A stretch of DNA of 64,000 nt, taken from positions 87,266 through 151,265 of the forward strand of contig JAABRR010000009.1 of assembly GCA_011390785.1 (NCBI GenBank), in the 5' to 3' direction. Numbering within the stretch: the stretch's first letter is position 1; the number at the start of each line of letters is the position of its first letter. The translations under genes were made by a program, and so were the position numbers. Below the pieces are notes generated by a model. The model did no database searches and was not told where the DNA came from. It worked only from the letters and a program-made list of their open reading frames with translations. Of this stretch, positions 15,595 to 32,500 are shown piece after piece. The stretch comes from Sphingobacteriia bacterium. GTDB taxonomy: Bacteria > Bacteroidota > Bacteroidia > Bacteroidales > UBA7960.

Positions 15595-17700
15595 ATGAAA
15601 ACTATAATAAATGTAATTAGTACAGCAATGATTTTATTAACCTTGAATTCCTGCAACACCGAAACCAACCCCTTGTTGCAAACTTTTAATACCCCATTCG
15701 AAACTCCTCCATTTGATAAAATCAAACATGAGCATTACAAACCTGCTTTTGAAGCTGCTATTGCAGATGCCCGGGATGAAGTGGATGCAATAGCCACCCA
15801 GGCATCAATTCCTGATTTTGAAAATACAATCGAAGCTTTGGCTTATTCCGGAGAACGGCTTGATTTGATCAGTGGTATTTTTTATAACATCCTGCATGCT
15901 GAAACCGATGAAACGATGCAGCAAATTGCCCGCGACATCTCTCCGATGGTAACCGATTTTCAGAATGATATTCGGTTTAATGAAGCTCTTTTTCAGCGTG
16001 TTAAATCAGTATATGATCAAAAAGACCAGCTAAACCTTACCACAGAACAAGAAATGCTTCTCGAAAAAACATTCAAAGGGTTTTCACGAAATGGTGCCAA
16101 TTTATCTACAAATGATAAAGAAAAGATGCGCGGCATTTCTCGTGAGTTGTCAGAACTTTCGCTAAAATTTAGCGATAATGTGCTGGCTGAAACCAACGGC
16201 TGGTTTTTGCACATTACCGATGAAGCTGATTTAGCTGGATTGCCGCAATCTGCCTTAGACGCCGCGTTACAAGCTGCCAAATCAAAGGACCTGGAGGGTT
16301 GGGTTATTACCCTTGATGCCCCCAGTTTTGGCCCATTTTTGCGATATTCTGAAAAGCGTGACTTAAGAGAAAAAGTTTACATGGCCTACTCTACAAGGGG
16401 TTACCAAAATAACGAACACAACAATTCTGAAATCATAAAACGAATAGCCAATTTAAGACTGGAACGGGCCAATCTGTTAGGCTATCCTTCGCACGCAGAT
16501 TTTGTACTAGAAGAAACCATGGCGCAAAGTGCTGGTAATGTAAACAACTTTTTAAAGGATCTTGCAGATGCTTCTCTGCCTTTAGCAAAAAATGAATTGG
16601 TAGAGGTGCAAAAATTCGCTGCACAAAAAGGCTTTAAAGAAGAGATAAAACCCTGGGACTGGAGTTTCTGGGCTGAAAAACTGAGAAAAGAAAAATATGA
16701 TTTCGACGAAGAGATTACCCGCCCCTATTTCCAGCTTGAAAAAGTAAAGCAAGGAATTTTTGATCTTACCGGAAAACTTTTCGGAATCACTTACAAAGAA
16801 AATACTGAAATACCCGTTTATCATGAAGATGTAAAGGTTTTTGAAGTGTATGATGCCGATGGAAGTTTTCTCTCTTTGCTCTATCTTGATTTCTTTCCAC
16901 GGGAAGGCAAAAGCGGCGGTGCCTGGATGACCAGCTTCCGCGAACAATACGTTGAAAATGGAACTGACTACCGCCCGCAGGTATCCATTGTTTGTAATTT
17001 TTCCAAACCTACAGACACGAAACCCTCCTTGCTAACTTTTAATGAAGTAACCACTTTTTTGCATGAATTCGGACATGCACTTCATGGTATGCTATCAAAA
17101 GTTACTTACAGTAATCTTTCAGGAACCAGTGTTTACCGTGATTTTGTAGAGCTCCCATCCCAGATCATGGAGAACTGGGCGGTTGAACGGGAATTTCTTG
17201 ATATGTTTGCACGTCATTACGAAACCGGAGAACCCATCCCATCTGAACTGGTAGATAAAATTATCAAAACAGAGCGTTTCCATGCTGCCTATGCCGCGGT
17301 TCGTCAGTTAAGTTTTGGTTTAAACGATATGGCATGGCATAGCATTACGGAACCTGTTTCTATGGATCCTGAACAATTTGAAATCCATGCCATGCAACCC
17401 GTACAGCTTTTTAAACGCATAGAAGGCACGATGATGAGTGCTGCTTTTTCTCATATTTTTGCCGGCGGTTATTCTGCCGGATATTATGGTTATAAATGGG
17501 CAGAAGTTCTTGATGCTGATGCCTTTAAAGCTTTTAAAGAAAATGGTATTTTTAATGTTGCCACATCAAAATCTTTCCGCGACAATGTTTTATCAAAAGG
17601 TGGAACCGAGCACCCCATGAATCTCTACGTGAAATTCAGGGGTAAGCAACCCACCATTGATGCTTTGCTGGAAAGAGAAGGTCTGAAGGAAACGATTTAA
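15595..17700 (+). CDS. dcp: M3-family zinc oligopeptidase / dipeptidyl carboxypeptidase, lipoprotein
   Basis: This 701-residue metallopeptidase of the thimet oligopeptidase/Dcp group cleaves short peptides, in Dcp by removing C-terminal dipeptides. The zinc site is HEFGHALHG, with His490, Glu491 and His494. A downstream Glu in the SQIMENWA segment is the third ligand region. The N-terminal FNTPFETPPFDKIKHEHYKPAFEAA is the typical start of the mature family domain. Residues 1-20 form a lipoprotein signal ending LNSC (Cys20), so this copy is exported, most likely to the periplasm, unlike the cytosolic E. coli Dcp. It is a single-gene unit. Confidence 0.92.
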   Translation: MKTIINVISTAMILLTLNSCNTETNPLLQTFNTPFETPPFDKIKHEHYKPAFEAAIADARDEVDAIATQASIPDFENTIEALAYSGERLDLISGIFYNILHAETDETMQQIARDISPMVTDFQNDIRFNEALFQRVKSVYDQKDQLNLTTEQEMLLEKTFKGFSRNGANLSTNDKEKMRGISRELSELSLKFSDNVLAETNGWFLHITDEADLAGLPQSALDAALQAAKSKDLEGWVITLDAPSFGPFLRYSEKRDLREKVYMAYSTRGYQNNEHNNSEIIKRIANLRLERANLLGYPSHADFVLEETMAQSAGNVNNFLKDLADASLPLAKNELVEVQKFAAQKGFKEEIKPWDWSFWAEKLRKEKYDFDEEITRPYFQLEKVKQGIFDLTGKLFGITYKENTEIPVYHEDVKVFEVYDADGSFLSLLYLDFFPREGKSGGAWMTSFREQYVENGTDYRPQVSIVCNFSKPTDTKPSLLTFNEVTTFLHEFGHALHGMLSKVTYSNLSGTSVYRDFVELPSQIMENWAVEREFLDMFARHYETGEPIPSELVDKIIKTERFHAAYAAVRQLSFGLNDMAWHSITEPVSMDPEQFEIHAMQPVQLFKRIEGTMMSAAFSHIFAGGYSAGYYGYKWAEVLDADAFKAFKENGIFNVATSKSFRDNVLSKGGTEHPMNLYVKFRGKQPTIDALLEREGLKETI

Positions 17701-18519: not shown

Positions 18520-20115
18520 ATGTCCGATTCTGTTACCAATACTGAAGAAAAAGATTCTACCCCATCTAAACAGTCTTTTCAGGAAGTACTAAAGAACTTT
18601 TATTCTCTTTATCAAAAAGTACTTAATGGGGGATCGGAAAAGGCAGTTGCTTTACACAGAAGCCGTGGAAAACTTACAGCCCGGGAACGTATTGATATTT
18701 TGCTTGATACGAATTCTCCATTTCTCGAATTTTCTGCTCTTGCTGCCAATGGGCAATACAATGATCAGTTTCCTTCAGCCGGCATTATCACCGGTATTGG
18801 TAAGGTAAATGGTCGTTTTGTTGTTGTGGTAGCCAATGATGCTACCGTAAAAGGGGGTACTTATATTCGGGAAACCATCCGCAAGCACATTCGGGCTCAG
18901 GAGATTGCTACCGAAAATCATTTACCAGCCATTTACCTGGTTGATAGTGGCGGGATTTTCCTTCCAGAACAGGCCCGGGTTTTTCCCGATAAAGAAGATT
19001 TCGGACGTATTTTCAGCAACCAGGCGCGCATGTCGGCCCTGGGCATACCCCAAATTGCTGTTGTGATGGGTTCCTGTACTGCCGGGGGCGCTTACATCCC
19101 GGCCATGAGCGATGAAAGTATCATCGTAAAAAACCAGGGAACCATCTTTATCGGCGGTCCACCATTGGTTAAAGCGGCAACGGGGGAAGAAGTAACCGAT
19201 GAGGAGCTCGGTGGTGGCGAAGTTCATGCACGCATTTCGGGTGTTGTAGATCATCTTGCCATTGATGATGTGCATGCCCTTAAAATTTGCCGTGATATTG
19301 TTTCTGGTTTTTCATCATCTGAAAAACAGCCGGTTAACAGAATAGAGCCTTCTGAACCCTTACATCCCGCAGAAGGATTACATAATCTGGCTCTTACTGA
19401 TTCTACACAGTTGATTGATCACGTAAGGGTTATCGAACATATTGTTGATGGAAGTATTTTTCATCCCTTTAAAGCAGAATATGCCAAAACCATCATAACC
19501 GGTTTTGCCCGTATTAATGGTTACCAGGTGGGAATCATTGCCAACAACGGAGTAGTTTTTGGCGAAACAGCACGCAAAGCTGCCCATTTTGTCCAGTTGT
19601 GCAATTTTCGGAAAATTCCGATGGTTTTTCTGCAAAACATTACTGGTTTTGTTGTAGGTAAGAAATATGAACACGATGGCATTGCCCGCGATGGCGCCAA
19701 ATGGATTCATGCTGTTTCTACCAGTGCGGTTCCCATAATAAATATCGTTACCGGTGGTTCCTATGGTGCTGGCAATTATGCTATGGCTGGTCGTGCTTTC
19801 GATCCAAGATTCCTGTTTATGTGGCCCAACGCCAGAATTGGAGTAATGGGTGGTGAACAGGCAGCCAGAGTATTGGTGCAGATAAGAAAGGCAAAAGGCC
19901 CCAATGGAGTAAACAATGAAAAATCGCCGGAAGAATTATTTAACGAAATAAAGGCCAGATACGACTATGAAAGCTCTGCTTTGTATGCTACCAGCCGAAT
20001 TTGGGATGATGGCATTATTGATCCGGTCAATACACGGAAGATTTTATCGCTGACGTTGGATATAGTTGCTCATAAAAAATGGCCTGAGTTTAAACCAGGT
20101 ATTTACAGGATGTAA
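18520..20115 (+). CDS. mccB: Methylcrotonyl-CoA carboxylase, carboxyltransferase (beta) subunit
   Basis: This 531-residue biotin-dependent carboxyltransferase most resembles the beta subunit of 3-methylcrotonyl-CoA carboxylase, which makes 3-methylglutaconyl-CoA during leucine breakdown. The N-terminal half has the acyl-CoA-binding crotonase fold (GKLTARERIDILLD; YNDQFPSAGIITGIG; VDSGGIFLPEQARVFPDKEDFGRIF). The VFPDKEDFGRIF segment is typical of MCC rather than propionyl-CoA carboxylase. The C-terminal half holds the carboxybiotin site (NNGVVFGETARKAAHF; NITGFVVGKKYEHDGIARDGAK; TGGSYGAGNYAM). It is the first gene of a run that continues with hydratase, alpha subunit and acyl-CoA dehydrogenase, which supports the leucine assignment. 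Geranyl-CoA carboxylase is a possible alternative. Confidence 0.88.
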   Translation: MSDSVTNTEEKDSTPSKQSFQEVLKNFYSLYQKVLNGGSEKAVALHRSRGKLTARERIDILLDTNSPFLEFSALAANGQYNDQFPSAGIITGIGKVNGRFVVVVANDATVKGGTYIRETIRKHIRAQEIATENHLPAIYLVDSGGIFLPEQARVFPDKEDFGRIFSNQARMSALGIPQIAVVMGSCTAGGAYIPAMSDESIIVKNQGTIFIGGPPLVKAATGEEVTDEELGGGEVHARISGVVDHLAIDDVHALKICRDIVSGFSSSEKQPVNRIEPSEPLHPAEGLHNLALTDSTQLIDHVRVIEHIVDGSIFHPFKAEYAKTIITGFARINGYQVGIIANNGVVFGETARKAAHFVQLCNFRKIPMVFLQNITGFVVGKKYEHDGIARDGAKWIHAVSTSAVPIINIVTGGSYGAGNYAMAGRAFDPRFLFMWPNARIGVMGGEQAARVLVQIRKAKGPNGVNNEKSPEELFNEIKARYDYESSALYATSRIWDDGIIDPVNTRKILSLTLDIVAHKKWPEFKPGIYRM

Positions 20116-20143
20116 GTTTTGATTTTACTTTTTTAGCAGGATA

Positions 20144-20926
20144 GTGAAGGATTATAGGCACATAGAAACAAAGTTGGAAGAAGGAGTTTTTACCCTGACG
20201 CTAAATCGCCCTGAAAAGCGAAATTCTATAAATGAACAAACCATGGATGAGTTGCTCAGCGCCATGGAAAGTATACCCGTTGACGGAAGTGTCAAAATTG
20301 CAGTGATCGATTCTAAGGGGAAAGATTTTTGTGCCGGTGCCGATCTCGAATGGATGCGCAATACACAGCAAATGAATGAGATGCAGCTTCAGGAGCAAAA
20401 TATGAAGCTGCAACGTGTTTTTCAAAGGTGGTTTGATTTGCCCGTTTTTACCATTGCCCTTACCCATGGAAATATTGTGGGCGGTGCATTGGGAATAGTA
20501 GCCGCCGCCAATTTGGTTATCGCTGCACCCGACAGTAAATTCAGGTTTTCGGAAGTTACCCTGGGTCTTCTTCCTGCCACCATAGCCCCCTTTGTTTTGC
20601 AACGTACCCAAAGCAGTACTATCAGGAATGCTATGCTCACTGCCATGCCTTTCAATTCGAAAGAAGCCCTTGACGCTGGTTTGGTTGATATAATTGCCAG
20701 CACCAGCGATCATCAGCACTATGTTAATGAAAATTTAACGGCTCTGAACAAAACGGAAAACGTGGCTGTTGGTAAAACAAAAAATCTCTTAAACGATTTG
20801 ATTTTTAATCGTATCGATGAAAATATTGCTCTGCATACTACCCGGTTGCTGGCTCAGGTGCGAAAATCTGAAGCAGCGTCAAAAAGAATAAAAGCATTTT
20901 TTGAATCAATAGATAAAAAAGCATGA
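20144..20926 (+). CDS. liuC: Methylglutaconyl-CoA hydratase (enoyl-CoA hydratase family)
   Basis: This 260-residue crotonase-fold enzyme is predicted to hydrate 3-methylglutaconyl-CoA to HMG-CoA. Oxyanion-hole segments are visible as DFCAGADLEWMR (about 62-73) and IVGGALGIVAAANLVIA (about 106-122). The family alone would allow other enoyl-CoA substrates. Its position between the two methylcrotonyl-CoA carboxylase subunits makes methylglutaconyl-CoA by far the likeliest. The start is a GTG at 20144 with AGCAGG just upstream. The stop overlaps the next ATG by four bases (ATGA), so translation is probably coupled. Confidence 0.85.
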   Translation: MKDYRHIETKLEEGVFTLTLNRPEKRNSINEQTMDELLSAMESIPVDGSVKIAVIDSKGKDFCAGADLEWMRNTQQMNEMQLQEQNMKLQRVFQRWFDLPVFTIALTHGNIVGGALGIVAAANLVIAAPDSKFRFSEVTLGLLPATIAPFVLQRTQSSTIRNAMLTAMPFNSKEALDAGLVDIIASTSDHQHYVNENLTALNKTENVAVGKTKNLLNDLIFNRIDENIALHTTRLLAQVRKSEAASKRIKAFFESIDKKA

Positions 20927-22866
20927 TGATAAAAAAAGTTCTTATTGCCAATCGGGGTGAAATAGCCATAAGAATTATTCAAACCCTCAATAAGATGCAG
21001 ATTCAAAGTGTAGCACTGTATACATCTATGGAATCTGACGATCTTCATGTTAAGGCTGCAGGCGAATCTGTTTTGTTGGGCAATGGCACTTTGGTAGAAA
21101 CCTGGCTCAACATCCCACTGATTATCAATATTGCTAAAGAATATGGAGCTGATGCCATTCATCCCGGATATGGCTTTTTATCTGAAAATGCACGTTTTGC
21201 AAGGGCTTGCGAAGATGCTGGAATTATTTTTATAGGACCAACTAGCGCCGTTATTGAAAAAATGGGTAGCAAAATAATGGCTTCTGCTACTGCCCGCGAA
21301 GAAGGAATTCCCCTTTTGCCCAGGTTGGAAGGAAGTCCTGCCGATTTATTAAAACAGGGTGCTGGTCTTGGATTTCCCCTTTTGGTAAAAGCCGCTGCAG
21401 GTGGTGGTGGTAAAGGTATGATTCGTATCGATGATGCAGAAATGCTCGAACAGGCAGTTTTTTCTGCCGCCGATCAGGCAAAAAGATATTTTGATGATGA
21501 CAAGGTATTCCTGGAAAGGTATGTGCAAAACCCCCGTCACATTGAAGTACAGATTCTGGCTGATAAACATGGAAATGTAATCCACCTCCACGAGCGTGAA
21601 TGTACAATTCAGCGAAACCACCAAAAAGTGATTGAAGAAGCCCCTTCTGTTTCGTTAAATCCCGAAAACCGGGCCGAGCTTCATAAGGCAGCTGTAAAAC
21701 TGGCTTCTGCTGTTGGGTATCAAAGTGCTGGTACCGTCGAATTTATTTTGGATGAAGATGGCAGGTTTTATTTTCTGGAAATGAATACCCGCATTCAGGT
21801 TGAACACCCGGTTACAGAAATTATTACGGGTATTGATATCGTAAAGGAACAAATGCTCATTGCTATGGGAAAACCACTTTCCTATACACAAAATCAGGTA
21901 AAAGTAAACGGACATGCCCTCGAAGTACGTTTGTATGCTGAAGACCCGGCTAATCAGTTTCGACCATCAGCCGGAAAAATAAAGAAGATTATCTTCCCTC
22001 AAAATAAATTTCTGCGGGTAGATAGCGCTATAAATAGCCAAGGTAAAGTTCATTCGAGTTTTGATGCCATGATTGCCAAATTGATTGTTTCTGGTGAAGA
22101 CAGAAAGAAGGCTGCTGAAAGAATGAAAGATATACTTGCTGATGTTTTGGTTCATGGCATTACTACCAACATTCATTTGTTATCAAATATCGTTGCTGAT
22201 AAACTTTTTCTCCAAAACAAACTTAGCACGCATACCCTTTCAGATAATCTTAGCAAATGGTCGGTTTTACGCGGGAATGATACTGCTGATGTAATGACGG
22301 CCGCTCTTTTCGTTTGGCTGGAAAGGTTTTATGCACCCCACGGAGCAAGCGCATGGAGAATGGCTGCTCATGAAAAAGTTTTGGTTAACAACAAAGAGAT
22401 CAGCTTGTTTTATTACCCGCTGGGAGATGCAGGCCTGATGATTACTTTGCATGAAAATGAAGAAAAATTTATAGATATTTCTGTTAAAGGCAACAAAATA
22501 GATTTTTTATGGAACAATAGGCCCTTGAGTGTTGTTTTTAGTTATCACCAGCGCAGTGCTATGTTTCTTGTAAATGGTATTCACTACCACGCTATCTTGC
22601 CCGAAACGAAACCTCTTCCCAAAGCTTTGGTTAATGGAGCTGTAAGAAAAATGCCCGATGTAAAGGCATCGTTATTTGGCAGGGTATTAAAGGTGAATGT
22701 TTCGGAAAAGCAGAGTGTTAAATCTGGTGAAACACTAATGGTAATTGAATCAATGAAAATGGAAAATACGATTCTTGCACCTGATGATAATGTTATTTCA
22801 CGTATAAATGTTAAAGAAGGCGACCAAATCAGTGATGGCCAGGTCTTAGTCAGTTTTGAGACCTGA
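20923..22866 (+). CDS. mccA: Methylcrotonyl-CoA carboxylase, biotin carboxylase/carrier (alpha) subunit
   Basis: This 647-residue protein combines a biotin carboxylase (about 1-445) and a C-terminal biotin carrier domain. Visible motifs are VLIANRGEIAIRI at the N-terminus, the ATP-grasp glycine loop KAAAGGGGKGM (about 156-166), HLHERECTIQRNHQKVIEEAPS, MNTRIQVEHPVTE, and the biotinylation site ESMKMEN with Lys612. The roughly 130-residue stretch between the two is the BT-like linker that docks the beta subunit. Together with the beta subunit it forms the holoenzyme that carboxylates 3-methylcrotonyl-CoA with bicarbonate and ATP. It overlaps the hydratase gene by four bases. Confidence 0.92.
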   Translation: MMIKKVLIANRGEIAIRIIQTLNKMQIQSVALYTSMESDDLHVKAAGESVLLGNGTLVETWLNIPLIINIAKEYGADAIHPGYGFLSENARFARACEDAGIIFIGPTSAVIEKMGSKIMASATAREEGIPLLPRLEGSPADLLKQGAGLGFPLLVKAAAGGGGKGMIRIDDAEMLEQAVFSAADQAKRYFDDDKVFLERYVQNPRHIEVQILADKHGNVIHLHERECTIQRNHQKVIEEAPSVSLNPENRAELHKAAVKLASAVGYQSAGTVEFILDEDGRFYFLEMNTRIQVEHPVTEIITGIDIVKEQMLIAMGKPLSYTQNQVKVNGHALEVRLYAEDPANQFRPSAGKIKKIIFPQNKFLRVDSAINSQGKVHSSFDAMIAKLIVSGEDRKKAAERMKDILADVLVHGITTNIHLLSNIVADKLFLQNKLSTHTLSDNLSKWSVLRGNDTADVMTAALFVWLERFYAPHGASAWRMAAHEKVLVNNKEISLFYYPLGDAGLMITLHENEEKFIDISVKGNKIDFLWNNRPLSVVFSYHQRSAMFLVNGIHYHAILPETKPLPKALVNGAVRKMPDVKASLFGRVLKVNVSEKQSVKSGETLMVIESMKMENTILAPDDNVISRINVKEGDQISDGQVLVSFET

Positions 22867-22901
22867 TTGGTATTAATGATCATTAAAAAAAGCACAACAG
22901 T

Positions 22902-24053
22902 ATGAGTAGTCCTTATTTTACTGCCTCGCACGAGGAATTCCGGCTCAAAGTAAGAAAATTTGCCGAAGAGCATGTCAGGCCTGTAGCCGCAGAGCTGGAT
23001 CGAACAGAGAAATTCTCTGAAGAGTTAACCAAAGCCATGGGGCATAATGGTTTGTTTGGCATCAATATTCCTGCAGAGTATGGCGGGCATGGAAAAGATT
23101 ATCGCTCCCTGGTACTGGCAGTAGAAGAAATTGCCCGCGTAGATGGAAGTCAGGCAGCAACTCTTGCTGCTCATAATTCATTGGGAATAGGTCCTATTTA
23201 TATGTTTGGAACCGAAGAACAGAAGAAAAATCTGATTCCAAAACTTACATCAGGCGAACATACATGGGCATTTGCCCTCACAGAGCCCAATGCAGGTAGC
23301 GATGCCATGGGAACAGATACCCGTGCCGAACTGGTTGATGGCAATTGGGTTATCAACGGCCAAAAGATATTTATTTCCAATGCCGCTGCTGATATGTCTC
23401 TGGGTGCTACCATCCAGGCCATTACCGGCGAAAAAGATGGAAAAAAGCTCCTTTCTACCATTATTGTTGATAGCTCCACCCCGGGCTATACCCGCGAACG
23501 AATCACCAATAAAATGATGTGGCGTTCTGCCGATACCGGCAAACTGAAATTTGACAATGTAAAAGTTCCCGAAGCCAGTCTTTTAGGAGAGTTAGGTAAA
23601 GGGGGACGACAGATGTTGCAAACACTCGACAGTGGCCGCCTTACTATCGGTGCTATGGGCCTTGGTCTTGCAAGGGGTGCATTTGAAATGGCCATGGATT
23701 ATGCCAACAAAAGAGAACAATTTGGTAAACCCATAAAGCATTTTCAGGCAATTGCCTTTAAACTGGCCGATATGGCTCTTAAAATTGAACTCGCAGCCAA
23801 TACACTTTATAACGCTGTATGGCTTAAGGATAATGGGTTTCCATTTGGCAAAGAAGCTGCCATGGCAAAGCTTTACACTTCAGAAATTGCCCGTGAAGTA
23901 GCAGACGAAGCTGTTCAGATTCACGGCGCTTATGGCCTTGTAACAGATAATGATATTGAGCGTTTCTATCGCGATCAAAGAATTTTACAAATTGGTGAAG
24001 GCACCAGCGAAATACTAAGGCTGGTAATCTCACGACACATTGATAATAAATAA
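22902..24053 (+). CDS. Acyl-CoA dehydrogenase (short/branched-chain type)
   Basis: This 383-residue FAD flavoprotein oxidises acyl-CoA to the 2-enoyl-CoA. Signatures are WAFALTEPNAGSDAMG (about 117-132), NKREQFGKPIKHFQAIAFKLADM (about 268-290), and the C-terminal LQIGEGTSEILR. In the cluster it would supply the isovaleryl-CoA dehydrogenase step of leucine breakdown. However, the likely catalytic Glu is Glu366 in GEGTSEI, the position used by short-chain and 2-methyl-branched enzymes. The place where isovaleryl-CoA dehydrogenase has its Glu (LDLER) reads LDSGR here. The substrate may therefore be a short or branched acyl-CoA other than, or in addition to, isovaleryl-CoA. It is 35 bases after the carboxylase alpha subunit. 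Confidence 0.9.
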   Translation: MSSPYFTASHEEFRLKVRKFAEEHVRPVAAELDRTEKFSEELTKAMGHNGLFGINIPAEYGGHGKDYRSLVLAVEEIARVDGSQAATLAAHNSLGIGPIYMFGTEEQKKNLIPKLTSGEHTWAFALTEPNAGSDAMGTDTRAELVDGNWVINGQKIFISNAAADMSLGATIQAITGEKDGKKLLSTIIVDSSTPGYTRERITNKMMWRSADTGKLKFDNVKVPEASLLGELGKGGRQMLQTLDSGRLTIGAMGLGLARGAFEMAMDYANKREQFGKPIKHFQAIAFKLADMALKIELAANTLYNAVWLKDNGFPFGKEAAMAKLYTSEIAREVADEAVQIHGAYGLVTDNDIERFYRDQRILQIGEGTSEILRLVISRHIDNK

Positions 24054-24065
24054 ATTGCCCCAACT

Positions 24066-25061
24066 ATGGAAGACCGTAAAAAAGATCATATAAACTTAGC
24101 TCTTTCAAACAGGACCGGCTCTGTGGATAAAGACACCCGGTTTGTTTATGAACCTCTTTTATCCGGTCATTTCGTTCCTGATATACCGCAGGTTGCACTG
24201 GCCGGTAAATCAATGAAAGTGCCCGTTTGGATATCGAGCATGACCGGTGGTAGCGGCATTGCCAGGCATATCAACACTAATCTTGCTATGGCGGCCAACG
24301 AATTTGGTCTGGGTATGGGGCTTGGCTCTTGTAGAATACTACTGGAGTCGGAAAAACATCTTCCGGATTTTAATATGCGGAAAGTTATCGGAAACGATTT
24401 GCCATTTTGGGCCAATCTGGGTATTGCGCAGCTGGAAGAAATGATTGAAAAGGGTACCTTAAACGAGGTTACCGATATGGTAAATCTCCTACAGTGCGAT
24501 GGTCTTATTATTCATGTTAATCCGCTACAGGAGTGGTTTCAGCCCGAAGGCGACAAGTTAAAACATTCCCCTCTGGATATAATAAAGGAAGTATTAAAGC
24601 AACTCGAAATGCCTGTTATTGTTAAGGAAGTAGGGCAGGGAATGGGTCGTGAGAGTTTAAGGGCACTTATGGCTCTGCCATTGGCGGCAATTGAGTTTGC
24701 TGCATTTGGGGGTACCAATTTCGCCCGCGTTGAAATGATGCGACGACCCAGTACCGATCATGAGCTTTTTGAACCAATGGTTTATGTTGGTCAAACAGCA
24801 GCAGATATGCTTAAAGATGTGAAGGAACTTTTGTATTATGGCGTTGAATGTAAAGCTCCCGCACTAATCATAAGTGGTGGCATAAGGAATTATCTGGATG
24901 GTTATTACTATATTAAAACAAGTCCAATACCTGCAGTATATGGCATGGCCTCAGGATTCCTTAAACATGCCCGTGACAGTTATTCAACACTTAAAGATTG
25001 GGCTTCAGCCCATATTGACGGACTCAAAATGGCACATGCATATCTGCGGGTGAACGAGTAA
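24066..25061 (+). CDS. fni: Type 2 isopentenyl-diphosphate delta-isomerase (FMN-dependent)
   Basis: Fni interconverts IPP and DMAPP with reduced FMN. The 331-residue length fits. Family motifs visible are RKKDHI (4-9), VWISSMTGGS (about 54-63), IHVNPLQEWFQPEGD (about 149-163), VIVKEVGQGM and the phosphate-binding IISGGIRNYLDGYY near residue 280. It begins only 12 bases after the acyl-CoA dehydrogenase stop, so it is very probably on the same transcript as the leucine genes. It is followed by a 156-base gap and then HMG-CoA reductase. This places an isoprenoid enzyme inside the leucine-catabolic unit. Confidence 0.93.
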   Translation: MEDRKKDHINLALSNRTGSVDKDTRFVYEPLLSGHFVPDIPQVALAGKSMKVPVWISSMTGGSGIARHINTNLAMAANEFGLGMGLGSCRILLESEKHLPDFNMRKVIGNDLPFWANLGIAQLEEMIEKGTLNEVTDMVNLLQCDGLIIHVNPLQEWFQPEGDKLKHSPLDIIKEVLKQLEMPVIVKEVGQGMGRESLRALMALPLAAIEFAAFGGTNFARVEMMRRPSTDHELFEPMVYVGQTAADMLKDVKELLYYGVECKAPALIISGGIRNYLDGYYYIKTSPIPAVYGMASGFLKHARDSYSTLKDWASAHIDGLKMAHAYLRVNE

Positions 25062-25217
25062 ATATCTGGTCTTTAAAATAGAAACATTATAACTTTCTGA
25101 AATTAGAGAAACCTAAAATAATTGTTTAACATCTTTTTTAGTTAAAAGAATAATAAAAGATATTTTTTGAAAAAAGTCATATTCTCTTTACAATCTTCAA
25201 ATAAATTTACATAATAG

Positions 25218-26534
25218 ATGATTACGCATAGTCAGCAACCTGTTAAAGGATTTTCCAAATTAAACAGGGACGAAAAAATTAAATGGCTTTCAGAATTATT
25301 GTCGGATAATGAGACAGCTTCATTTCTTCAAAACTTTAGATATTCAGATGCATCCTTACAAAAAAAATTTGAAAGCTTCTCTGAAAATACGATGTCAAAT
25401 TACCATCTTCCATGGGGGATTGTTCCAAATGTTATGGTAGATGGGACAATATTTCATGTGCCGGTTGTAATTGAAGAAAGTTCTGTGGTGGCGGCAGCAT
25501 CTAAAGCCGCTTCATTTTGGGCAAACAGAGGTGGTTTTGAAACCCTTTTTATCTCTACATTAAAAAAAGGTCAGTTGCATTTTCTTTTTTCGGGCGACCA
25601 GGAAAGATTGAAAATGAACTGGGGTTTAATTGCTGAGGCGTTAAAAGCCTCTGTAAGTTATCTTACAGATAGTATGCGTAAGCGCGGGGGAGGTATTACA
25701 GCTTTAAGGCTTAAGAAAATCAAAGGGCTTGCTTCCGATTATAGCCAGATTGATCTTGAAGCCAAAACTGCCGACAGTATGGGGGCCAATTTTATCAACT
25801 CTTTGCTGGAAGAAATGAGCAGGGTACTTCCTGATCTTATCAATAAGCATGCAGGAGCCGGGAATGTGGAAATACTCATGTCCATCTTGTCGAATTATAC
25901 GCCAGAAAGCATCGTTAAAATGCAAATACAAGCCCCCATTGAAACACTAACATGGGACAAGAACATGGATCCTTTTAAATTTGCTGAACGGATGAAATGG
26001 GCTTCTGATATTGCCTGGCATGACAAGGGCAGGGCTGTTACGCATAACAAAGGTATTTATAATGGTGTTGATGCCGTTGTGCTGGCTACAGGGAATGATT
26101 TCAGAGCAGTTGAAGCTGCAGGACATGCATTTGCATCACGAAAGGGGAGTAAATACAGATCGCTGAGCAGCGTTACCCTTTCTAACAATATGTTTACTCT
26201 TGAAATGGAGATTCCCTTATCTCTTGGAACTGTTGGTGGTCTGACCAATCTGCATCCTTTAGCGGCAAAATCTCTTCAAATACTGGGTAATCCTGATGCT
26301 AAAACCCTTATGAAGCTATCTACTGCCGTTGGTCTTGCAAACAATTTTGCAGCTATGGCTTCGCTCGTTACCACAGGTATCCAACAGGGGCACATGAAAA
26401 TGCATCTAAAAAATATTTTAAATTCGTTGAATGTGCCTGAGAGCAAACATGTTGATGCAGAAAAATATTTTAGCAACAAAACGGTTAGCGTAGCAGCAGT
26501 AAAAAAATATATAGGTTATACTGGCAAAGCTTAA
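25218..26534 (+). CDS. mvaA: Hydroxymethylglutaryl-CoA reductase, class II
   Basis: This enzyme reduces HMG-CoA to mevalonate with NAD(P)H. The 438-residue length and the absence of a membrane anchor fit the class II bacterial form. Catalytic elements are visible as Glu56 in SENTMSN, Lys278 in HNKGIYNGVDAV, Asp285, and a C-terminal His in QQGHMKMHL. DSMGANFIN (187-195) is the cofactor-binding signature. A 156-base AT-rich gap separates it from fni, so a second promoter here is possible; no exact TAnnTTTG box was seen. Its substrate HMG-CoA is the product of the hydratase encoded 4 kb upstream. Confidence 0.94.
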   Translation: MITHSQQPVKGFSKLNRDEKIKWLSELLSDNETASFLQNFRYSDASLQKKFESFSENTMSNYHLPWGIVPNVMVDGTIFHVPVVIEESSVVAAASKAASFWANRGGFETLFISTLKKGQLHFLFSGDQERLKMNWGLIAEALKASVSYLTDSMRKRGGGITALRLKKIKGLASDYSQIDLEAKTADSMGANFINSLLEEMSRVLPDLINKHAGAGNVEILMSILSNYTPESIVKMQIQAPIETLTWDKNMDPFKFAERMKWASDIAWHDKGRAVTHNKGIYNGVDAVVLATGNDFRAVEAAGHAFASRKGSKYRSLSSVTLSNNMFTLEMEIPLSLGTVGGLTNLHPLAAKSLQILGNPDAKTLMKLSTAVGLANNFAAMASLVTTGIQQGHMKMHLKNILNSLNVPESKHVDAEKYFSNKTVSVAAVKKYIGYTGKA

Positions 26535-26584
26535 TTAAAATCGAATTAGTTCCTAAAACCCTCTAAAGTGATTCCAGAAGATTT

Positions 26585-27496
26585 ATGGAAGAACATTTTT
26601 CAAAAGGCAAACTAATCCTCATGGGTGAGTATGCCGTGCTTCATGGAGCTGATGCTCTTTGTCTTCCCCTGGAAACAGGTCAGAAGCTAATGGTTGATAA
26701 ATCTGATGATGGTCTTATTCATTGGAAATGGAGTTACCGAGATATTATTCTGGCCGATTTCTCCCTTATTGCTTCTACCCTAAAAGTTTTTAAACAGCGA
26801 ACCGGACAAGCAGAATGGGCAGTAAAGCTATTAAGTCTTATAAGAAACGATGTGGACGGTTTTCTTCTTAATGGCGCTAATCTTCATTTTGTCAATCTTT
26901 TTCCTGCAGAGTGGGGGTTGGGTAGTAGCTCAGCTTCCATTGCATCTCTATGTCGTATGGCACGAACAGATCCTTTCGTTGTTAATCAAACTCTGATGGG
27001 AGGTTCCGGTGCTGATATTGCTGCAACTACAGCCAGCAAATGGTTTATTTACCGAAAATCTCCGTCCCGGCAAAAAAACTGGGAACTCCCTTTTCAATAT
27101 CATTTCACCGAAAATACCTATTTTATTTATACGGGGAAAAAACAGGCAACAGCCAGCCATCTGGCCGAAGTTGATCAAAGGCTAAGCCGCCAGGCCATTT
27201 CATGGATGCAGGCCAACGAATATGTCTATCGTTTTCTTGCGGTTCCACCAATTTCTGAAGCCATGAAAATAATGCACGAACATGAATTGTTCGTTTCTAA
27301 AGCAATTGGGAAAACTCCTGTTGGCAATGGATTCAATGATTTTCCAGGACAAATAAAATCGCTGGGTGCCTGGGGAGGTGACTTTATTATGGCTTTAACA
27401 CAGCAATCGGACGAATTTGTTAAAAAATATTTCCAACAAAAGGGCTTTCAGAATGTTTTTAGCTGGAAAGAACTTGTTGAAACCAAAGTTTTTTAA
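26585..27496 (+). CDS. GHMP-family kinase, probable second phosphorylation step of the mevalonate pathway
   Basis: This 303-residue GHMP kinase has KGKLILMGEYAVLHGADALCLP at the N-terminus (the mevalonate-kinase-like substrate segment), the ATP loop WGLGSSSASI (about 112-121), and GGSGADIAATTAS (about 138-150). The last corresponds to the GYDIA/GSGxDxA signature of a Bacteroidota-specific GHMP kinase group. Because a separate mevalonate kinase and a diphosphomevalonate decarboxylase lie next to it, and no classical phosphomevalonate kinase is present, this gene is the best candidate for phosphomevalonate kinase. That role is an inference from context, not proven by motifs. It starts 50 bases after mvaA. 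Confidence 0.75.
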   Translation: MEEHFSKGKLILMGEYAVLHGADALCLPLETGQKLMVDKSDDGLIHWKWSYRDIILADFSLIASTLKVFKQRTGQAEWAVKLLSLIRNDVDGFLLNGANLHFVNLFPAEWGLGSSSASIASLCRMARTDPFVVNQTLMGGSGADIAATTASKWFIYRKSPSRQKNWELPFQYHFTENTYFIYTGKKQATASHLAEVDQRLSRQAISWMQANEYVYRFLAVPPISEAMKIMHEHELFVSKAIGKTPVGNGFNDFPGQIKSLGAWGGDFIMALTQQSDEFVKKYFQQKGFQNVFSWKELVETKVF

Positions 27497-27598
27497 TTTT
27501 GTTTAAACTTATATTTCGATTAAGATTACTTTTGCAAGGATTTAATAGAGGTATGAAAAAGACCTGTTTATTGCCATAACTTCAAAATAAGATATAAA

Positions 27599-28642
27599 AT
27601 GTGTATTAAAGGAAAAGTAAGATTTAGCAGTCCGTCGAATATTGCGATTGTGAAATATTGGGGAAAAGAACCCGGAGATCAGATCCCCATGAATCCTTCG
27701 TTGAGTATGACGCTTGATCACTGCAGAAGTTTTACTACAATAGATTATGTAATTAAAAAGGGTTACGAACCTCATATTGAAGTTGTTTTTGAAGGCAAAA
27801 GATCTATAGATATTGAGGCTAAATTACAGCGTTGGTTTACCAAAATATCCTATTTTTTTTCCTGGCTAAATTATGCAAGTTTGAAAGTGGAAAGTCACAA
27901 TAATTTTCCCCACTCTGCCGGTATTGCATCTTCGGCCAGTGGAATGAGCACTATGGCCATGTGTTTATCTGCCATTGATGCCCATTTGAATAACGGACAA
28001 ATGCCTGGTTTGGATGTTCAAAGCAATATTTCACGGTTAGGATCAGGCAGTGCTTCGCGCTCTGTCATGGGCCCCTGGGTTTTATGGGGTAAAACTGATC
28101 TCGTTGATGGCGCTTGCAACGAGCATGCCGTGGTAGTTCCCGATGTACATTCTTATTTTCATAATCTGAAAGATACCATTATTGTTGTAGATAAAGAGCC
28201 CAAACGCATAAGCAGTCGTGATGGGCATACCTTCATGGAATTGCACCCATGGCGCAAAGGGCGTATTGAACAAGCCCATCAAAACCTTGAATTGCTTATA
28301 AATGCCATGAAAAAAGGCGATTGGTCTTTGTTTCAAAAGGTAACAGAAAATGAAGCCCTGAGTCTTCATGCTCTTATGCTTGCCTCTGAAGGAGGAATTC
28401 TGCTATGGAAAGGGAATACTGTTGATTGGATGCATTATATACGCGATCAGCGTAAGAGAACAAGCTTGCCACTAACATTTACCCTTGATGCAGGAGCAAA
28501 TCTGCATCTATTATATCCTGCTGAAGTTAAAGATCAGGTTATGGATATTATTGAATCATCGCCTGTACCGCGTTTGGAAATTCTTCATGACCAAACTGGC
28601 AAAGGGCCTTTAATGTTGTTGGACGAATATGATCATTGCTGA
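27599..28642 (+). CDS. mvaD: Diphosphomevalonate decarboxylase
   Basis: MvaD converts mevalonate diphosphate to IPP with ATP-dependent decarboxylation. The 347-residue protein carries the signature SSPSNIAIVKYWGK (10-23), which includes the diphosphate-binding Lys/Tyr/Trp cluster. It also has MNPSLSMTLD (31-40), the ATP loop FPHSAGIASSASG (about 100-112) and RLGSGSASRSV (about 143-153). It lies 102 bases after the GHMP kinase gene. Its last 14 bases overlap the start of the mevalonate kinase gene, showing tight coupling. Confidence 0.94.
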   Translation: MCIKGKVRFSSPSNIAIVKYWGKEPGDQIPMNPSLSMTLDHCRSFTTIDYVIKKGYEPHIEVVFEGKRSIDIEAKLQRWFTKISYFFSWLNYASLKVESHNNFPHSAGIASSASGMSTMAMCLSAIDAHLNNGQMPGLDVQSNISRLGSGSASRSVMGPWVLWGKTDLVDGACNEHAVVVPDVHSYFHNLKDTIIVVDKEPKRISSRDGHTFMELHPWRKGRIEQAHQNLELLINAMKKGDWSLFQKVTENEALSLHALMLASEGGILLWKGNTVDWMHYIRDQRKRTSLPLTFTLDAGANLHLLYPAEVKDQVMDIIESSPVPRLEILHDQTGKGPLMLLDEYDHC

Positions 28643-29573
28643 GAAAAGAGATTTTTTTGCCAAGATTCTTCTGTTTGGCGAGTATAGTATTATTGATGGT
28701 GGACAGGCTCTAATCCTTCCGCTCAAGAAATTCTCAGGCCATATCGATTTTTTTGCCGAAAACTCTAATAATAGAAATACAGCAGCAGATTCAAACGATT
28801 CTATCCGTAGATACCTAAAGTATTTGCAGGAATTAGATAAATTAAAAAAATTTACCTTTCCTCTCGATCTGGAATCCCTGGAAAGCGATCTTGCCAAAGG
28901 TTTGTTTTTCAAAAGTAATATTCCTCAGGGCTATGGTGCAGGAAGCAGCGGGTCTTTGGTAGCAGCTTTGTTTTATCACTACTCCTTGTCAGGGATTGAA
29001 CTAAATTTCCGTAAGTTCAATATTGATTTTGATAATCTCCGGAAACAACTGGCTTTGATGGAATCATGGTTTCATGGTAACTCGTCGGGCCTTGACCCCC
29101 TGAGCAGCCTGATGGGAAAGCCATTTATTCTGGATGTCAATAAAAAAATCCGGTTCCAGAAAATATCTGTTAACTCAAACGGCTCACGCCCTGCAGTTTT
29201 TTTGGTTGATACCGGCCAACCAGGTAAAACCAAACCCCTTGTAGATTGGTTCCGAAAAGAAAAATTACATAAAAGGCTTAATGCCCTTCTGTTAAATGAT
29301 CTGAGTAACGAAACACTTACTGCATTCTTAGATAAGGATGACTGGCTTTTCTGGAATTATCTGGCCCAATTGTCTATTTTTCAACTTGAAAACATGAAAC
29401 CCATGATCCCTGAAACTATTCGTGAATTGTGGGATGAAGGCCTTTACAGTAAGCAATACAATTTAAAGCTTTGCGGCTCAGGCGGTGGAGGTTTTGTTTT
29501 GGGTTTTTGCAAAGATTATCCCTTTGTAAAAGAGATGTTCGATAAGTCGGGTTTTCGATCTTTTTTGATGTAA
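28629..29573 (+). CDS. mvk: Mevalonate kinase
   Basis: This 314-residue GHMP kinase is predicted to phosphorylate mevalonate. Visible elements are AKILLFGEYSIIDGGQALILP (11-31), typical of mevalonate kinases, the ATP loop PQGYGAGSSGSLVAA (about 98-112), SWFHGNSSGLDPLSS (the substrate/catalytic Asp segment) and the C-terminal KLCGSGGGGFVLGF. The ATG lies 14 bases inside mvaD. It is the last gene of the cluster and is convergent with the SAM/NACHT/TPR gene, with 19 bases between stop codons and no clear terminator. Confidence 0.9.
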   Translation: MIIAEKRDFFAKILLFGEYSIIDGGQALILPLKKFSGHIDFFAENSNNRNTAADSNDSIRRYLKYLQELDKLKKFTFPLDLESLESDLAKGLFFKSNIPQGYGAGSSGSLVAALFYHYSLSGIELNFRKFNIDFDNLRKQLALMESWFHGNSSGLDPLSSLMGKPFILDVNKKIRFQKISVNSNGSRPAVFLVDTGQPGKTKPLVDWFRKEKLHKRLNALLLNDLSNETLTAFLDKDDWLFWNYLAQLSIFQLENMKPMIPETIRELWDEGLYSKQYNLKLCGSGGGGFVLGFCKDYPFVKEMFDKSGFRSFLM

Positions 29574-29592: not shown

Positions 29593-32500
29593 TTAATTCC
29601 ATGCAAATATTTCCCTGTTCAGGGGTACTTTCTCCATAAACGTGCTTTTAAGTTGCTCATCCTGAATTTTTTCAGCCCGTTCGGTTATAATGGATTTTGC
29701 CTTTTCTGCAAACTCTTTGGCTTTTTGGCTATCTCCCAAAGCATTTAAAATTATGGCATGATTAAACCAGGCCCGTTGCAGGTCTTCCACAACATCATAG
29801 CCGGATAGGATTTCGATTGCCTTTGATGAGAGTTCCATTGCGGAGTCTTTATTTCCCAATTCCAGTTCGGCCCTGGCCAGACCCGAAACATCCATCATTT
29901 CAAAGCTTTCTGTTTTTAGTTGCTGTCGAATAGCAATTCCTTTTTTAAATTCTTTTCTGGCATCATCAGGTCTGTTCATTTCCAAAAATATATAACCTTT
30001 GTTGTTACACGTAAGTCCCATAATATAAGGCTGACGGATAGTTTCGTTGATTGCATTGGCCTGTTGGTAAAACTCAAGTGCTTTTTCAGGATTACCACTC
30101 CACCATGATGCGGTTCCCAGGCTGTTGAGTGCTTTTCCCAGCCCTTTCTGGTCGTTGAGTTGGGTAAGAATTTGCCTGGTTTTGTTGAGATGGATAAAAG
30201 CTTCTTCTGACAAGCCCAGGCCCCGAAGGATTATGCCCATGTGGTTGTGAGCTTCAGCCAGATTGCGCGGGCTATTTGCCTTTTCAAACAGGATAAGAGC
30301 CTGCTTCAGACTTTCCATAGCAGGGATGTCCTGAAATTTTTGCCATTGATTAATACCCATAGCCGAATAGCATCTGGCCATTTGTGCCGGCAAATGAACC
30401 TTTTCAAATAATGGGATGGCTTTTTTGAAAGAGTCAATAGCTTCATCAAATTGATCAATATGTCGCAAACACCATCCTTTGGCAACAGCTACTGATGCAA
30501 GGGCTGCATAGTCGTTGGGGTTGGTAAAATGATCCGATTTTTCGAAGTACCATAGTGCTTCTGCATATTCACCTTCATGCTGAAAAATTTCGCCAACATA
30601 AACAAGCATTTTCCAGGGTTGTACCGGCAGATCTTCATATTGAAGATATTTTTCGGCACTTTTTCGCGTAAGGGTTTTTAAGATATCTGCTTTTTCAGCA
30701 CTACGGTAAGCCACCAGATCAAAATGACGGGCATCTTTACCACATAGAGAAATAAACAACGTATTGGTAACGAGCTCATCCAGTTCATTGGCAAGATTAG
30801 CCTGCTGAAGGTGTTGGGGCAGCATTTTCAGGGCATAGGTTTGTTCAAAACCCTGCATATCGGGCCAGGATGAAAGGTAAGCTGCCCATTTTTCTGCGTA
30901 TAAACGAGTGGATGTGATTATTGATAGTTGCAGGTATTCTGCAAAACTAAAATGAAACAACCGGTAAAAAACAACGGAATCATCATCTTTATAATCGATC
31001 CCTTTTTCGTTTACGGGGATGGTATCAAGATACTGGCCTATGTAGCGGATACACCAATCGAAACGTAATGGACTTAGATTCAGGCATTCGCAAAGCTGAT
31101 TGCGGGTAACAGGTTCCCGGGCGGTAAGAATGGCTCCCAAAACATCGTATATGTCTTGCAGTTTGTCAGGATCATCGGTAAATTTTTCTTTGAGCCTTTC
31201 AAAGTTGCCGTGATACCATTGGTTAAGGCTTTTGTTTTCCTTCAGGTAATTACTTATTTGATCTGCCGGCAAGTCATCTTCCAACATTGAAGTGCAGATT
31301 TGTTTTAAGAAGAGAAAATTCCATCGGGCCAGATCGGCTATTTCCTTTTGTTTGCTTAACGGAATTTTTTCACCCAGTTTTTCGGCCACAAACTGGTAAG
31401 CATCCTGTTTGTTTTCTTCGGTATCGGCTTTTAAAACAAAGCTCTGATAATCTTCCCTTTGCGATAATTTCCCGGTAATGGTACTCTGTGGCCTGGTGCT
31501 TACAGCAAAATAGATTTGCGGGGGAATAAAACCGGGTAATATATCGGTAATGGTTTGTCCATCGCTGGCTGGCAAGGCTTCATCAATAGCATCGAGTACA
31601 ATGTATTCTCTTTGCCCGGGTTTGAGCATGGCAGAGATGGTGTGAAGAAGATTTTCGAACTGCATGCGGGTATCTTTGGCACCGGTAGGTGGATTCTCAT
31701 TTTCTATGTTGTATTTTTTAAGCAGGAAATGAAACAGGCTCGATATACATTCATCAGGATCAGTTACATTGGAAGAAGCCCTGAAGAAGAAGTGTGGCGT
31801 ACCTTGAGTCGGATCAATAAGATTGGCCATGACGGCTGATTTTCCAATGCCCGGTTCGCCCAGCAAAGTAAATACCCCTTTGTCGTTTTGGGCAAAAAAC
31901 TCTTCAAAGCGCTCAAATACAAATTTCCGTCCGGTAATGTGTGAATATGAGTCGAGCAAAGCAGAAAAATTCCGTACATGTTTGTCTATCGATAGTACCG
32001 ATGCATGAAAAGCATTAAAAACCTTAAGCAACATGGATTCCTGAAAAATTTTCTCGAGAATGACTATGGGTTTATCACTTGCTGTCCGCACACCAAGTTC
32101 ATAATCAAGCATGTAAAGGTTTCTCTTTTTTTTGTTTTTCGAATAACTCTTCTGGCTGTCATAATACAGGAATGTGGGTTGGTTTTGCTCGTTACCGTTT
32201 TCAAGCATAAAAAACGGTTCTACTCCTAAAAACTTATTTTGCAAAACAAAACCGGGCTTTCCAATATTTTCCGGGTTGTATTTTCCTTCAATAATAGAAT
32301 GATTGATACCACTCCATTTTTTTGCAGAAGCTTCATTCAATGGCTCAACAACTGGAAAATCGCCAAGAAACCGGGTTTGCAGCATAAGTTCCTGGAAAGG
32401 TTGTATCCTTTGTCCGAGTTCTTTTTTGTATTGTTTTTCTGAAAGTCTTGCTCCGTGGTGTATTTCATTTCGAAACTTCACAAAATCTATAAGCTGAAGC

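Follow-up and report, generated by a model that had tools for sequence, protein, structure and literature searches.

The 64-kb window (the whole stretch of DNA analysed here, from source genome G000, of Bacteroidales type) contains nine reading frames on the same (+) strand at positions 18520-29573, with gaps of 28, -4, 35, 12, 156, 50, 102 and -14 bases between successive frames. They encode, in order, the beta subunit of methylcrotonyl-CoA carboxylase (MCCB, 18520..20115), a predicted 3-methylglutaconyl-CoA hydratase (20144..20926), the alpha subunit of the same carboxylase (MCCA, 20923..22866), an acyl-CoA dehydrogenase (22902..24053), type 2 isopentenyl-diphosphate isomerase (IDI2, 24066..25061), HMG-CoA reductase (HMGR, 25218..26534), a GYDIA-family GHMP kinase (26585..27496), diphosphomevalonate decarboxylase (DPMD, 27599..28642) and mevalonate kinase (MVK, 28629..29573), the last two overlapping by 14 bases. 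A preliminary description had claimed this one-directional run of leucine and mevalonate genes, with the IPP isomerase 12 bases after the dehydrogenase; all the reading frames lie at the positions given there, their families fit the matches to PDB sequences, and the 12-base gap was measured. The 156-base gap before HMGR (25062..25217, +) contains three promoter-like sites of 10/12 and could hold an internal promoter, while the scanned region as a whole had 34 such sites against 33.4 in shuffles. Promoter and terminator scans (19 terminators against 11.6) were thus uninformative as to transcript boundaries. Upstream of the cluster, and also in genome G007, is a reading frame (15595-17700 in the window) that we take, from its sequence, to be an M3-type peptidase.

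The first four genes make up a predicted leucine module of Liu type, with both MCC subunits, a glutaconyl-type hydratase and an acyl-CoA dehydrogenase. MCCB (531 aa, PF01039) matched PDB chains named MCC beta at 539-595 bits, geranyl-CoA carboxylase at 420 bits, and most propionyl/methylmalonyl-type chains at 256 bits or less. The top three chains carry other names, namely AccD1 (624 bits, deposited as a probable acetyl-/propionyl-CoA carboxylase, presumably acting as an MCC), 9tps (613 bits, propionyl-CoA carboxylase beta) and 9yx0 (613 bits, carboxyl transferase). In a survey of 80 of the 91 genomes (all but G025-G028, G030-G033, G035, G036 and G039), the MCCB matches listed fell into two groups, full-length proteins at about 430 bits or more (at least 45% identity) and a second set at no more than 258 bits. 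Identity as a carboxylase of propionyl-CoA or geranyl-CoA was rejected on this split and on most of the PDB scores, although the three best chains are named otherwise. MCCA (647 aa; Biotin_carb_N/C, Biotin_lipoyl) has a fused biotin carrier domain with the motif ESMKM near residue 610.

The hydratase (260 aa, PF00378) is a LiuC/AtuE-like crotonase whose nearest structures are 4kpk and AtuE 4zu2, and it matched a carboxygeranoyl-CoA hydratase-type NCBIfam model under its cut-off. Its Glu137 is invariant in 24/24 aligned hydratases from mevalonate-linked, lyase-linked and other MCC clusters. From its sequence the enzyme is predicted to form HMG-CoA, the compound at which the two modules meet. 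The dehydrogenase (383 aa, PF00441/02771/02770) is closest to the acyl-CoA dehydrogenase 7szv (337 bits); named short-chain types reached at most 287 bits and isovaleryl-CoA dehydrogenases at most 235 bits. Its motif IGEGTSE has Glu at what we take to be the short-chain position, and Gly where isovaleryl-CoA dehydrogenases presumably have Glu, so its assignment as a predicted isovaleryl-CoA dehydrogenase rests on context.

HMGR, MVK, DPMD and IPP isomerase of the canonical mevalonate pathway are all encoded in the second module, several as divergent proteins under their NCBIfam cut-offs. IDI2 (331 aa) scored 209 bits against TIGR02151 (cut-off 281) and 125 bits against the PDB enzyme 1vcf. HMGR (438 aa), of class II type, matched PF00368 at 260 bits, 7n7s at 392 bits and its NCBIfam model at 244 bits (cut-off 260), and carries the Glu, Lys, Asp and His motifs that we assume to be catalytic. 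DPMD (347 aa) scored 161 bits against TIGR01240 (cut-off 171) and 143 bits against 3lto; MVK (314 aa) was the weakest match, with 61 bits against TIGR00549 (cut-off 163) and 29 bits against 2x7i. The GYDIA-family kinase (303 aa; NF040656 212 bits, cut-off 225) is a candidate phosphomevalonate kinase; in Foldseek its AlphaFold model (pLDDT 89.6) matched GHMP kinases, those for mevalonate and phosphomevalonate among them.

In the usual account, HMG-CoA synthase (HMGS) leads from acetyl-CoA into the mevalonate pathway. The earlier observation that neither HMGS nor HMG-CoA lyase is encoded at the locus was extended to the whole of G000 by profile searches. No HMGS match was found with PF01154 or with a Bacteroidota HMGS profile (A1), and the lyase model NF004283 gave no convincing match in the genome, the two best being a citramalate-synthase-type protein (51 bits at best) and LeuA (44 bits). 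The proposal that leucine carbon is passed to isoprenoids was not refuted by these searches. Leucine would likely feed this mevalonate pathway, as far as gene content indicates, because the whole-genome searches detected neither the synthase that normally makes HMG-CoA nor the lyase that normally splits it. LeuA, LeuB, LeuC, LeuD, an acetolactate synthase and VorB were each detected above a curated cut-off, VorB on a contig other than that of the cluster. DXR, the marker of the MEP pathway, is present in G000 and in 41/41 genomes searched, indicating that the organism has the MEP pathway as well and that its mevalonate branch need not be essential.

The possibility that HMGS was hidden by an unsuited Pfam model was rejected since the A1 search of G000 was also empty, though a form that escapes both profiles may exist. 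A1 is an alignment of seven Bacteroidota HMGS proteins (that of locus L137, with an interrupted reading frame, was excluded). Over 50 genomes, A1 recovered the same eight HMGS genomes as PF01154 (599-781 bits), seven of which supplied its sequences and are therefore no independent control, plus a 20-bit match in G044. This survey took 50 of 80 loci; G041-G044 have match places identical to G002, G009, G003 and G006, leaving 46 new genomes. Independent controls are G089 (599 bits) and, with HMGS of archaeal type, G020 and G036 (68-71 bits). Over 41 relatives, A1 found G020 and G036, with further matches of 20-23 bits in G018, G014 and G006. PF01154 found the same two genomes and, at 22 bits, a protein of G010 that by eye reads as FabH beside PlsX.

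A survey of related Bacteroidota, as the preliminary description had suggested, found the same gene order in 18 other loci, complete or truncated at contig ends. All nine genes are present in 11/18 (in L056 and L058 a contig end truncates the first or last of them), and one further locus has all but IDI2. The loci come from six genera of the same family, from another family in the order and from one Sunxiuqinia MAG, so that adjacency by chance was rejected. Strict motif patterns were found for biotin in 16/18 loci (L170 and L132 carry SMKI and SMKT versions), hydratase in 15/16, HMGR in 17/18 (L174 is cut), IDI2 in 10/18, DPMD in 13/16 and MVK in 12/15.

Homologous MCCB, hydratase, MCCA and dehydrogenase genes also occur in lyase-linked MCC clusters, which differ in that HMG-CoA lyase adjoins the module in place of the mevalonate genes. 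In G029 (L188) the four genes have the order found here and are followed by the lyase, with HMGR on another contig (L164); in L271, L272 and L273 they lie close together. In the MCCB tree, mevalonate-linked and lyase-linked sequences fell on opposite sides of one branch (86/92). The branch had 97/95 in a second tree without G090, G045, G071, G082, G052, G078 and G057, where G004 and G009 were labelled linked although their contigs break there. Mevalonate-linked rows of the dehydrogenase tree need two changes, with 18/19 together (87/88) and the long-branch G090 outside.

The lyase was then scored in HMGR-bearing genomes, using a linkage table coded by hand for 70 genomes, of which eight were left out as undetermined, their upstream side being truncated at a contig end. 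In G007 the linkage can be followed up to IDI2, but the contig ends before HMGR, and this genome stands outside the table. Among the 62 scorable genomes, the lyase was found in 0/21 linked and 28/41 unlinked ones (Fisher p 5.6e-8, without correction for kinship). Since the linked genomes are mostly close relatives, this association represents far fewer than 21 independent events. With MCC-bearing genomes only, the figures are 0/19 and 24/32, eight unlinked genomes with MCC thus lacking the lyase. The best lyase match per genome was either at least 178 bits, as in each of the 31 lyase-bearing genomes, or at most 71 bits.

These data bear on the explanation that the two modules are ordinary neighbours, in which a diverged, undetected lyase degrades leucine, an undetected HMGS makes isoprenoids from acetyl-CoA, and adjacency reflects shared regulation or chance. 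It is favoured by the fact that all but one of the lyases found scored 139-207 bits, below the model cut-off of 246, and that A1 was made from PF01154 hits, so that the two HMGS profiles are not independent. However, both profiles reach archaeal-type HMGS, which is far from the Bacteroidota form, lyase scores are split as described, the order is kept over six genera and at least three families, and all 21 linked genomes lack the lyase. We consider this explanation unlikely.

In favour of a leucine feed, all HMGR-bearing genomes with DXR lacked HMGS (42/42, the DXR of G063 being a 23-bit fragment), and 37/42 have MCC. Against it, and in support of ordinary neighbours, 20/28 of the HMGR-bearing genomes without detected DXR had no HMGS match either, including isolates of Gillisia and two Salegentibacter and the complete genome of Saprospira grandis. 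These 20 must make or obtain isoprenoids; 16 have MCC, and G051, G055, G058 and G086 do not, suggesting that both profiles may miss a form of HMGS, or that some of these genomes have another source of HMG-CoA. Flavobacterium names were among those named in the best 120 of 5,460 hits of an HMGS protein search, which did not settle the question for Salegentibacter and Gillisia.

The supported reading, that leucine carbon may pass straight to isoprenoids as the preliminary description had inferred, draws on the lack of detected synthase and lyase in G000, the conserved order and the absence of lyase from the 21 linked genomes. The route would be as follows. Leucine or its keto acid would give isovaleryl-CoA, with VorB as a candidate; the dehydrogenase would yield 3-methylcrotonyl-CoA, MCC would put a carboxyl on a methyl carbon, and the hydratase would form HMG-CoA. 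HMGR, the two kinases and DPMD would then lead to IPP. In the established chemistry of these enzymes, DPMD later takes off the carboxyl that MCC has put on; bicarbonate would thus serve as a temporary handle, and the five-carbon isovaleryl skeleton of leucine would end up whole in one isoprene unit. We regard it as probable that HMG-CoA made by the predicted leucine module, which lies directly before the predicted mevalonate module, is reduced to mevalonate and turned into IPP/DMAPP rather than cleaved, as an acetyl-CoA-independent supply beside the MEP pathway.

The feed could instead be isovalerate or isovaleryl-CoA that is supplied externally or derived from peptides, making the cluster a route of branched-chain acid assimilation into isoprenoids. 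None of the nine genes was assigned as an aminotransferase or keto-acid oxidoreductase, VorB lies away from the cluster on a different contig, and the upstream peptidase frame, shared with G007, would fit such a feed; but LeuA/B/C/D and VorB are in the genome, and the bacterium could plausibly make and oxidise its own leucine keto acid. We consider this source quite improbable.

Bacteroidota use isovaleryl-CoA for iso-fatty acids, and the hydratase step could run in reverse, from HMG-CoA or salvaged mevalonate to isovaleryl-CoA for iso-branched fatty acids. Consistent with such use, the relatives G020 and G036 carry HMGS of archaeal type and gave no match for HMGR, and in G020 HMGS lies beside a dehydrogenase and a hydratase. 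The carboxylating direction of MCC is ATP-driven, however, and the two kinases, decarboxylase and IPP isomerase point from mevalonate to IPP. In myxobacteria, AibA/AibB are the decarboxylase of an alternative isovaleryl-CoA route. That route, which includes AibC and the aib operon, runs from HMG-CoA to isovaleryl-CoA in the available text of PMC9548883, and reportedly enters by an HMGS, whereas none was found in G000. Reverse use of the cluster is therefore very improbable.

A flow of leucine carbon to isoprenoids is itself already known. In the leucine-to-sterol route of the trypanosomatid T. brucei, leucine-derived HMG-CoA goes directly to HMG-CoA reductase within one compartment, according to the accessible part of PMC5993337. 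The same enzyme set, isovaleryl-CoA dehydrogenase, MCC and methylglutaconyl-CoA hydratase leading to HMG-CoA and HMGR, is present here as genes, with the dehydrogenase substrate predicted. T. brucei differs in having an HMGS gene and a putative lyase (PMC5993337, same part); here one bacterial cluster holds the genes, DXR is there as well, and the searches found neither enzyme. For myxobacteria, too, a flux from leucine to isoprenoids has been reported (PMC7321100), where leucine-degradation intermediates enter the mevalonate pathway and labelled dimethylacrylic acid entered a sesquiterpene, as given in the accessible portions of PMC7321100 and PMC9548883. No description of the fused nine-gene order was found in those portions, nor any report of a leucine-mevalonate cluster of this kind among the papers listed by literature searches. 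Within that scope, what is new is a cluster dedicated to the route in a genome with neither synthase nor lyase detected.

If true, leucine breakdown replaces the acetyl-CoA/HMGS entry, and HMGR-positive, HMGS-negative genomes are to be read differently. This could explain why these bacteria keep the mevalonate pathway beside MEP, would offer metabolic engineering a ready-made route from leucine or isovalerate to terpenoids, and predicts M+5 isoprene units from labelled leucine. More tentatively, a Bacteroidota lineage without HMGS or lyase may have welded leucine breakdown to HMGR, an intact C5 skeleton becoming isoprene with bicarbonate as reusable handle, and other Bacteroidota in which neither HMGS nor DXR was detected (the ruminant-gut MAGs G046 and G050, Salegentibacter, Gillisia and Saprospira grandis) might draw all their isoprenoids from leucine alone.

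HMGR followed by a GYDIA kinase, as in the cluster, was also observed in F. terrisoli (L094) and F. salilacus (L077), which differ in that no DXR was detected, neither MCC nor dehydrogenase lies beside HMGR, and HMGS is present elsewhere.

The region at 18520-29573 holds nine consecutive + strand open reading frames (ORFs), which ORF calling and family profile searches placed in the order methylcrotonyl-CoA carboxylase beta subunit (MCCB), predicted 3-methylglutaconyl-CoA hydratase, MCC alpha subunit (MCCA), acyl-CoA dehydrogenase, type 2 IPP isomerase (IDI2), HMG-CoA reductase (HMGR), GYDIA GHMP kinase, diphosphomevalonate decarboxylase (DPMD) and mevalonate kinase (MVK). The successive gaps are 28, -4, 35, 12, 156, 50, 102 and -14 bases. 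This bears out the run of leucine and then mevalonate genes in one direction that was noted in the preliminary description. The IDI2-HMGR gap, 156 bases here and -17 to 396 in other loci (with starts set by script), could contain a promoter.

In PDB sequence searches MCCB scored 539-595 bits against chains named MCC beta, 420 bits against geranyl-CoA carboxylase and at most 256 against most propionyl-CoA carboxylases, its top scores (613-624) being AccD1, 9tps and 9yx0, all named otherwise than MCC; this comparison supports a predicted MCC-type beta subunit at the 18520 end. The hydratase resembles 4kpk and AtuE (4zu2) by sequence and Foldseek, with LiuC (5jbw) at rank 32 among the Foldseek matches. 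For MCCA, PDB sequence search and motif reading support a biotin carboxylase subunit that carries a biotin motif. The dehydrogenase is of short-chain type in appearance, again by PDB sequence search, which tells against the leucine reading. The identities of HMGR (class II), DPMD and IDI2 are also backed by PDB sequence search, and MVK had a weak match.

Sequence search of the PDB gave no close relative of the GYDIA kinase (26585-27496), but its structural model (pLDDT 89.6) folds like mevalonate, phosphomevalonate and other GHMP kinases. Bacteroidetes have been described as missing a phosphomevalonate kinase (PMC4148732, PMC4026382), which makes this protein a natural candidate for that enzyme. 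A GYDIA GHMP kinase followed HMGR in 61 of the 80 HMGR loci from named genomes, with or without leucine genes beside it.

From these assignments, the most likely role of the cluster would be to carry leucine carbon to IPP/DMAPP: the leucine keto acid would pass through isovaleryl-CoA, methylcrotonyl-CoA and methylglutaconyl-CoA to HMG-CoA, and thence through mevalonate to IPP/DMAPP. The carboxyl group added by MCC becomes C1 of mevalonate and is lost at the DPMD step, so that the isovaleryl skeleton of leucine is expected intact in IPP. As for the feeding steps, a candidate for the keto-acid step, VorB, is on contig C108 of the source genome (NF005507, 544 bits, cut-off 399), and LeuA, LeuC, LeuD, LeuB and acetolactate synthase are on contig C67.

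The window occupies positions 87266-151265 of contig C158 in the source genome assembly (4.82 Mb, 158 contigs, listed completeness 100% and contamination 2.94%). This assembly was searched for the two enzymes that the window does not encode, HMG-CoA synthase and HMG-CoA lyase, and neither was detected. PF01154 found no HMG-CoA synthase (HMGS) in the whole genome. Because the Pfam model might overlook Bacteroidota forms, a second profile (A1) was built from seven HMGS that PF01154 found in other genomes, and it likewise found none genome-wide. A1 shares its origin with PF01154 and is dependent on it, seven of the eight genomes with A1 matches among 50 being its own sources; independent controls were G089 (599 bits) and the archaeal-type HMGS of two relatives (68-71 bits). 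For HMG-CoA lyase, the best NF004283 match in the whole genome reached 51 bits, and the two strongest places were a citramalate-synthase-type protein and LeuA.

The gene arrangement is real and conserved. Among loci gathered by HMGR (80 from named genomes, and relatives) and by MCCB, the complete nine-gene order was found outside the window in 11 loci (L056, L058, L059, L171, L173, L159, L161, L162, L163, L165 and L132), contig ends cutting L056 within MCCB and L058 within MVK. L132 belongs to a Sunxiuqinia MAG (Prolixibacteraceae) with proteins 29-61% identical to those of the window. L176 keeps the order with IDI2 absent, and L172, L174, L249, L160, L170 and L167 keep it partially, as far as their contigs reach, with MVK 1,407 bases beyond DPMD in L170. 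In this synteny survey the order recurs, whole or cut by contig ends, in 18 further loci of 18 genomes. They cover six genera (g1, g2, g3, g5, g6 and g7) of the family to which the window belongs, one genome of a different family in the same order (G038) and Sunxiuqinia. In L087 and L109 (Marinifilaceae-type) and L175 (G021), the dehydrogenase alone adjoins the mevalonate genes; G068 and G081 carry their MCC module, together with a second dehydrogenase, elsewhere.

Among 70 distinct genomes with HMGR, HMG-CoA lyase was present in 31, each with a best match of at least 178 bits; every other genome gave at most 71. Linkage to the mevalonate genes could be scored in 62 of the 70, and lyase was found in 0/21 linked versus 28/41 unlinked genomes (Fisher p 5.6e-8, uncorrected for kinship), or 0/19 versus 24/32 among MCC-bearing ones. 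Since 17 of the 21 linked genomes are from one family, the association reflects a handful of independent events. Lyase absence does not require linkage, as eight genomes have MCC with neither lyase nor linkage (G034, G040, G048, G050, G069, G071, G074 and G088). G012 and G021 (68% and 73% complete) are dehydrogenase-linked, with MCC not found.

The sharpest contrast to the window is G029, of the same order, where MCCB, hydratase, MCCA and dehydrogenase are followed by HMG-CoA lyase (L188), with a second lyase nearby and HMGR on a separate contig (L164). CoA-transferase-like genes also lie near the L188 lyase. Glu137 is one of 22 invariant columns in 24 aligned hydratases of both mevalonate-linked and lyase-linked kinds, and because these columns are common to both, the hydratase reaction is likely the same and the exit alone different. 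In the MCCB tree the mevalonate-linked sequences lie on one side of a single branch (86/92; 96% of 200 bootstrap trees) with the lyase-linked ones opposite, and in a reduced set the branch had 97/95 and 100%, consistent with one origin of the mevalonate-linked MCCB. The position of G090 is unsure owing to long branches.

DXR, a marker of the MEP pathway, was found in the source genome, which very likely has that pathway as well, and in 41/41 genomes looked at. HMGS was absent from 42/42 genomes carrying both HMGR and DXR, and also from 20 of the 28 that have HMGR but in which DXR was not detected. These 20 include the complete genome of Saprospira grandis (G082) and isolates of Gillisia lutea (G052), Salegentibacter salinarum (G057) and S. 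maritimus (G078). Sixteen of the 20 have MCC, and leucine feeding would fit there too; MCC is missing in G051, G055, G058 and G086. With 20 of 28 lacking HMGS and DXR, four of them also MCC, and no significant complementarity between HMGS and MCC across the 28 (Fisher p 0.37), it is possible that the profiles overlook a form of HMGS.

Two ruminant-gut MAGs, G046 (L266) and G050 (L265), have HMGR and MCC, with DXR, HMGS and lyase not found; in G051, a red-deer MAG, MCC was not found either, nor DXR, HMGS or lyase. An archaeal-type HMGS occurs in G020 (L186:4964-9996), adjoining a thiolase-like gene, a small Cys-rich protein, a dehydrogenase and a hydratase, and in G036 (L187/L001), at NF003274 518-526 bits. 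HMGR was not found in either genome, a mirror image of the window. An HMGR-like gene of another type occurs as a second copy in G003, G013, G015, G019, G021 and G024 (open frames of 392-424 aa), and as the sole copy in G034 (about 780 aa) and G040 (about 520 aa); no gene of the nine-gene cluster was found beside it in these eight genomes.

The leucine-to-isoprenoid flux that the preliminary description cited for trypanosomatids is established there: leucine-derived HMG-CoA is used directly for sterols, which the paper terms unique, and T. brucei has a gene for HMGS and a putative one for the lyase (PMC5993337). In the source genome here neither was detected. In myxobacteria, label from dimethylacrylic acid is reported to have reached a sesquiterpene, while acetate label caused no significant shift; the authors invoked the leucine pathway (PMC7321100). 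The opposite-direction aib route is described as well (PMC9548883). Two isoprenoid pathways in one bacterium are known, as in Mycobacterium marinum, in a paper whose main text lacks the word leucine (PMC12632256). A fused leucine-mevalonate gene cluster was not found among the matches listed in the literature searched, most subscription journals being outside its scope. As a form of a metabolic connection already known, the arrangement would be new, and it makes a clear prediction that can be tested.

A putative M3-type oligopeptidase ORF (15595-17700) precedes MCCB on the same strand, as one does in G007 (L249:7902-10010). Beyond it, on the - strand (8783-15259), is a protein of 2158 aa in which 'WDFGDG'-like segments, presumably PKD-type, recur many times; a 2166-aa ORF is in the same place in G007 (L249:973-7473), matched by position alone. 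Immediately downstream of the cluster, the sequence of a 1175-aa protein (29593-33120, - strand) suggests an ATPase whose C-terminal part carries TPR-like repeats.
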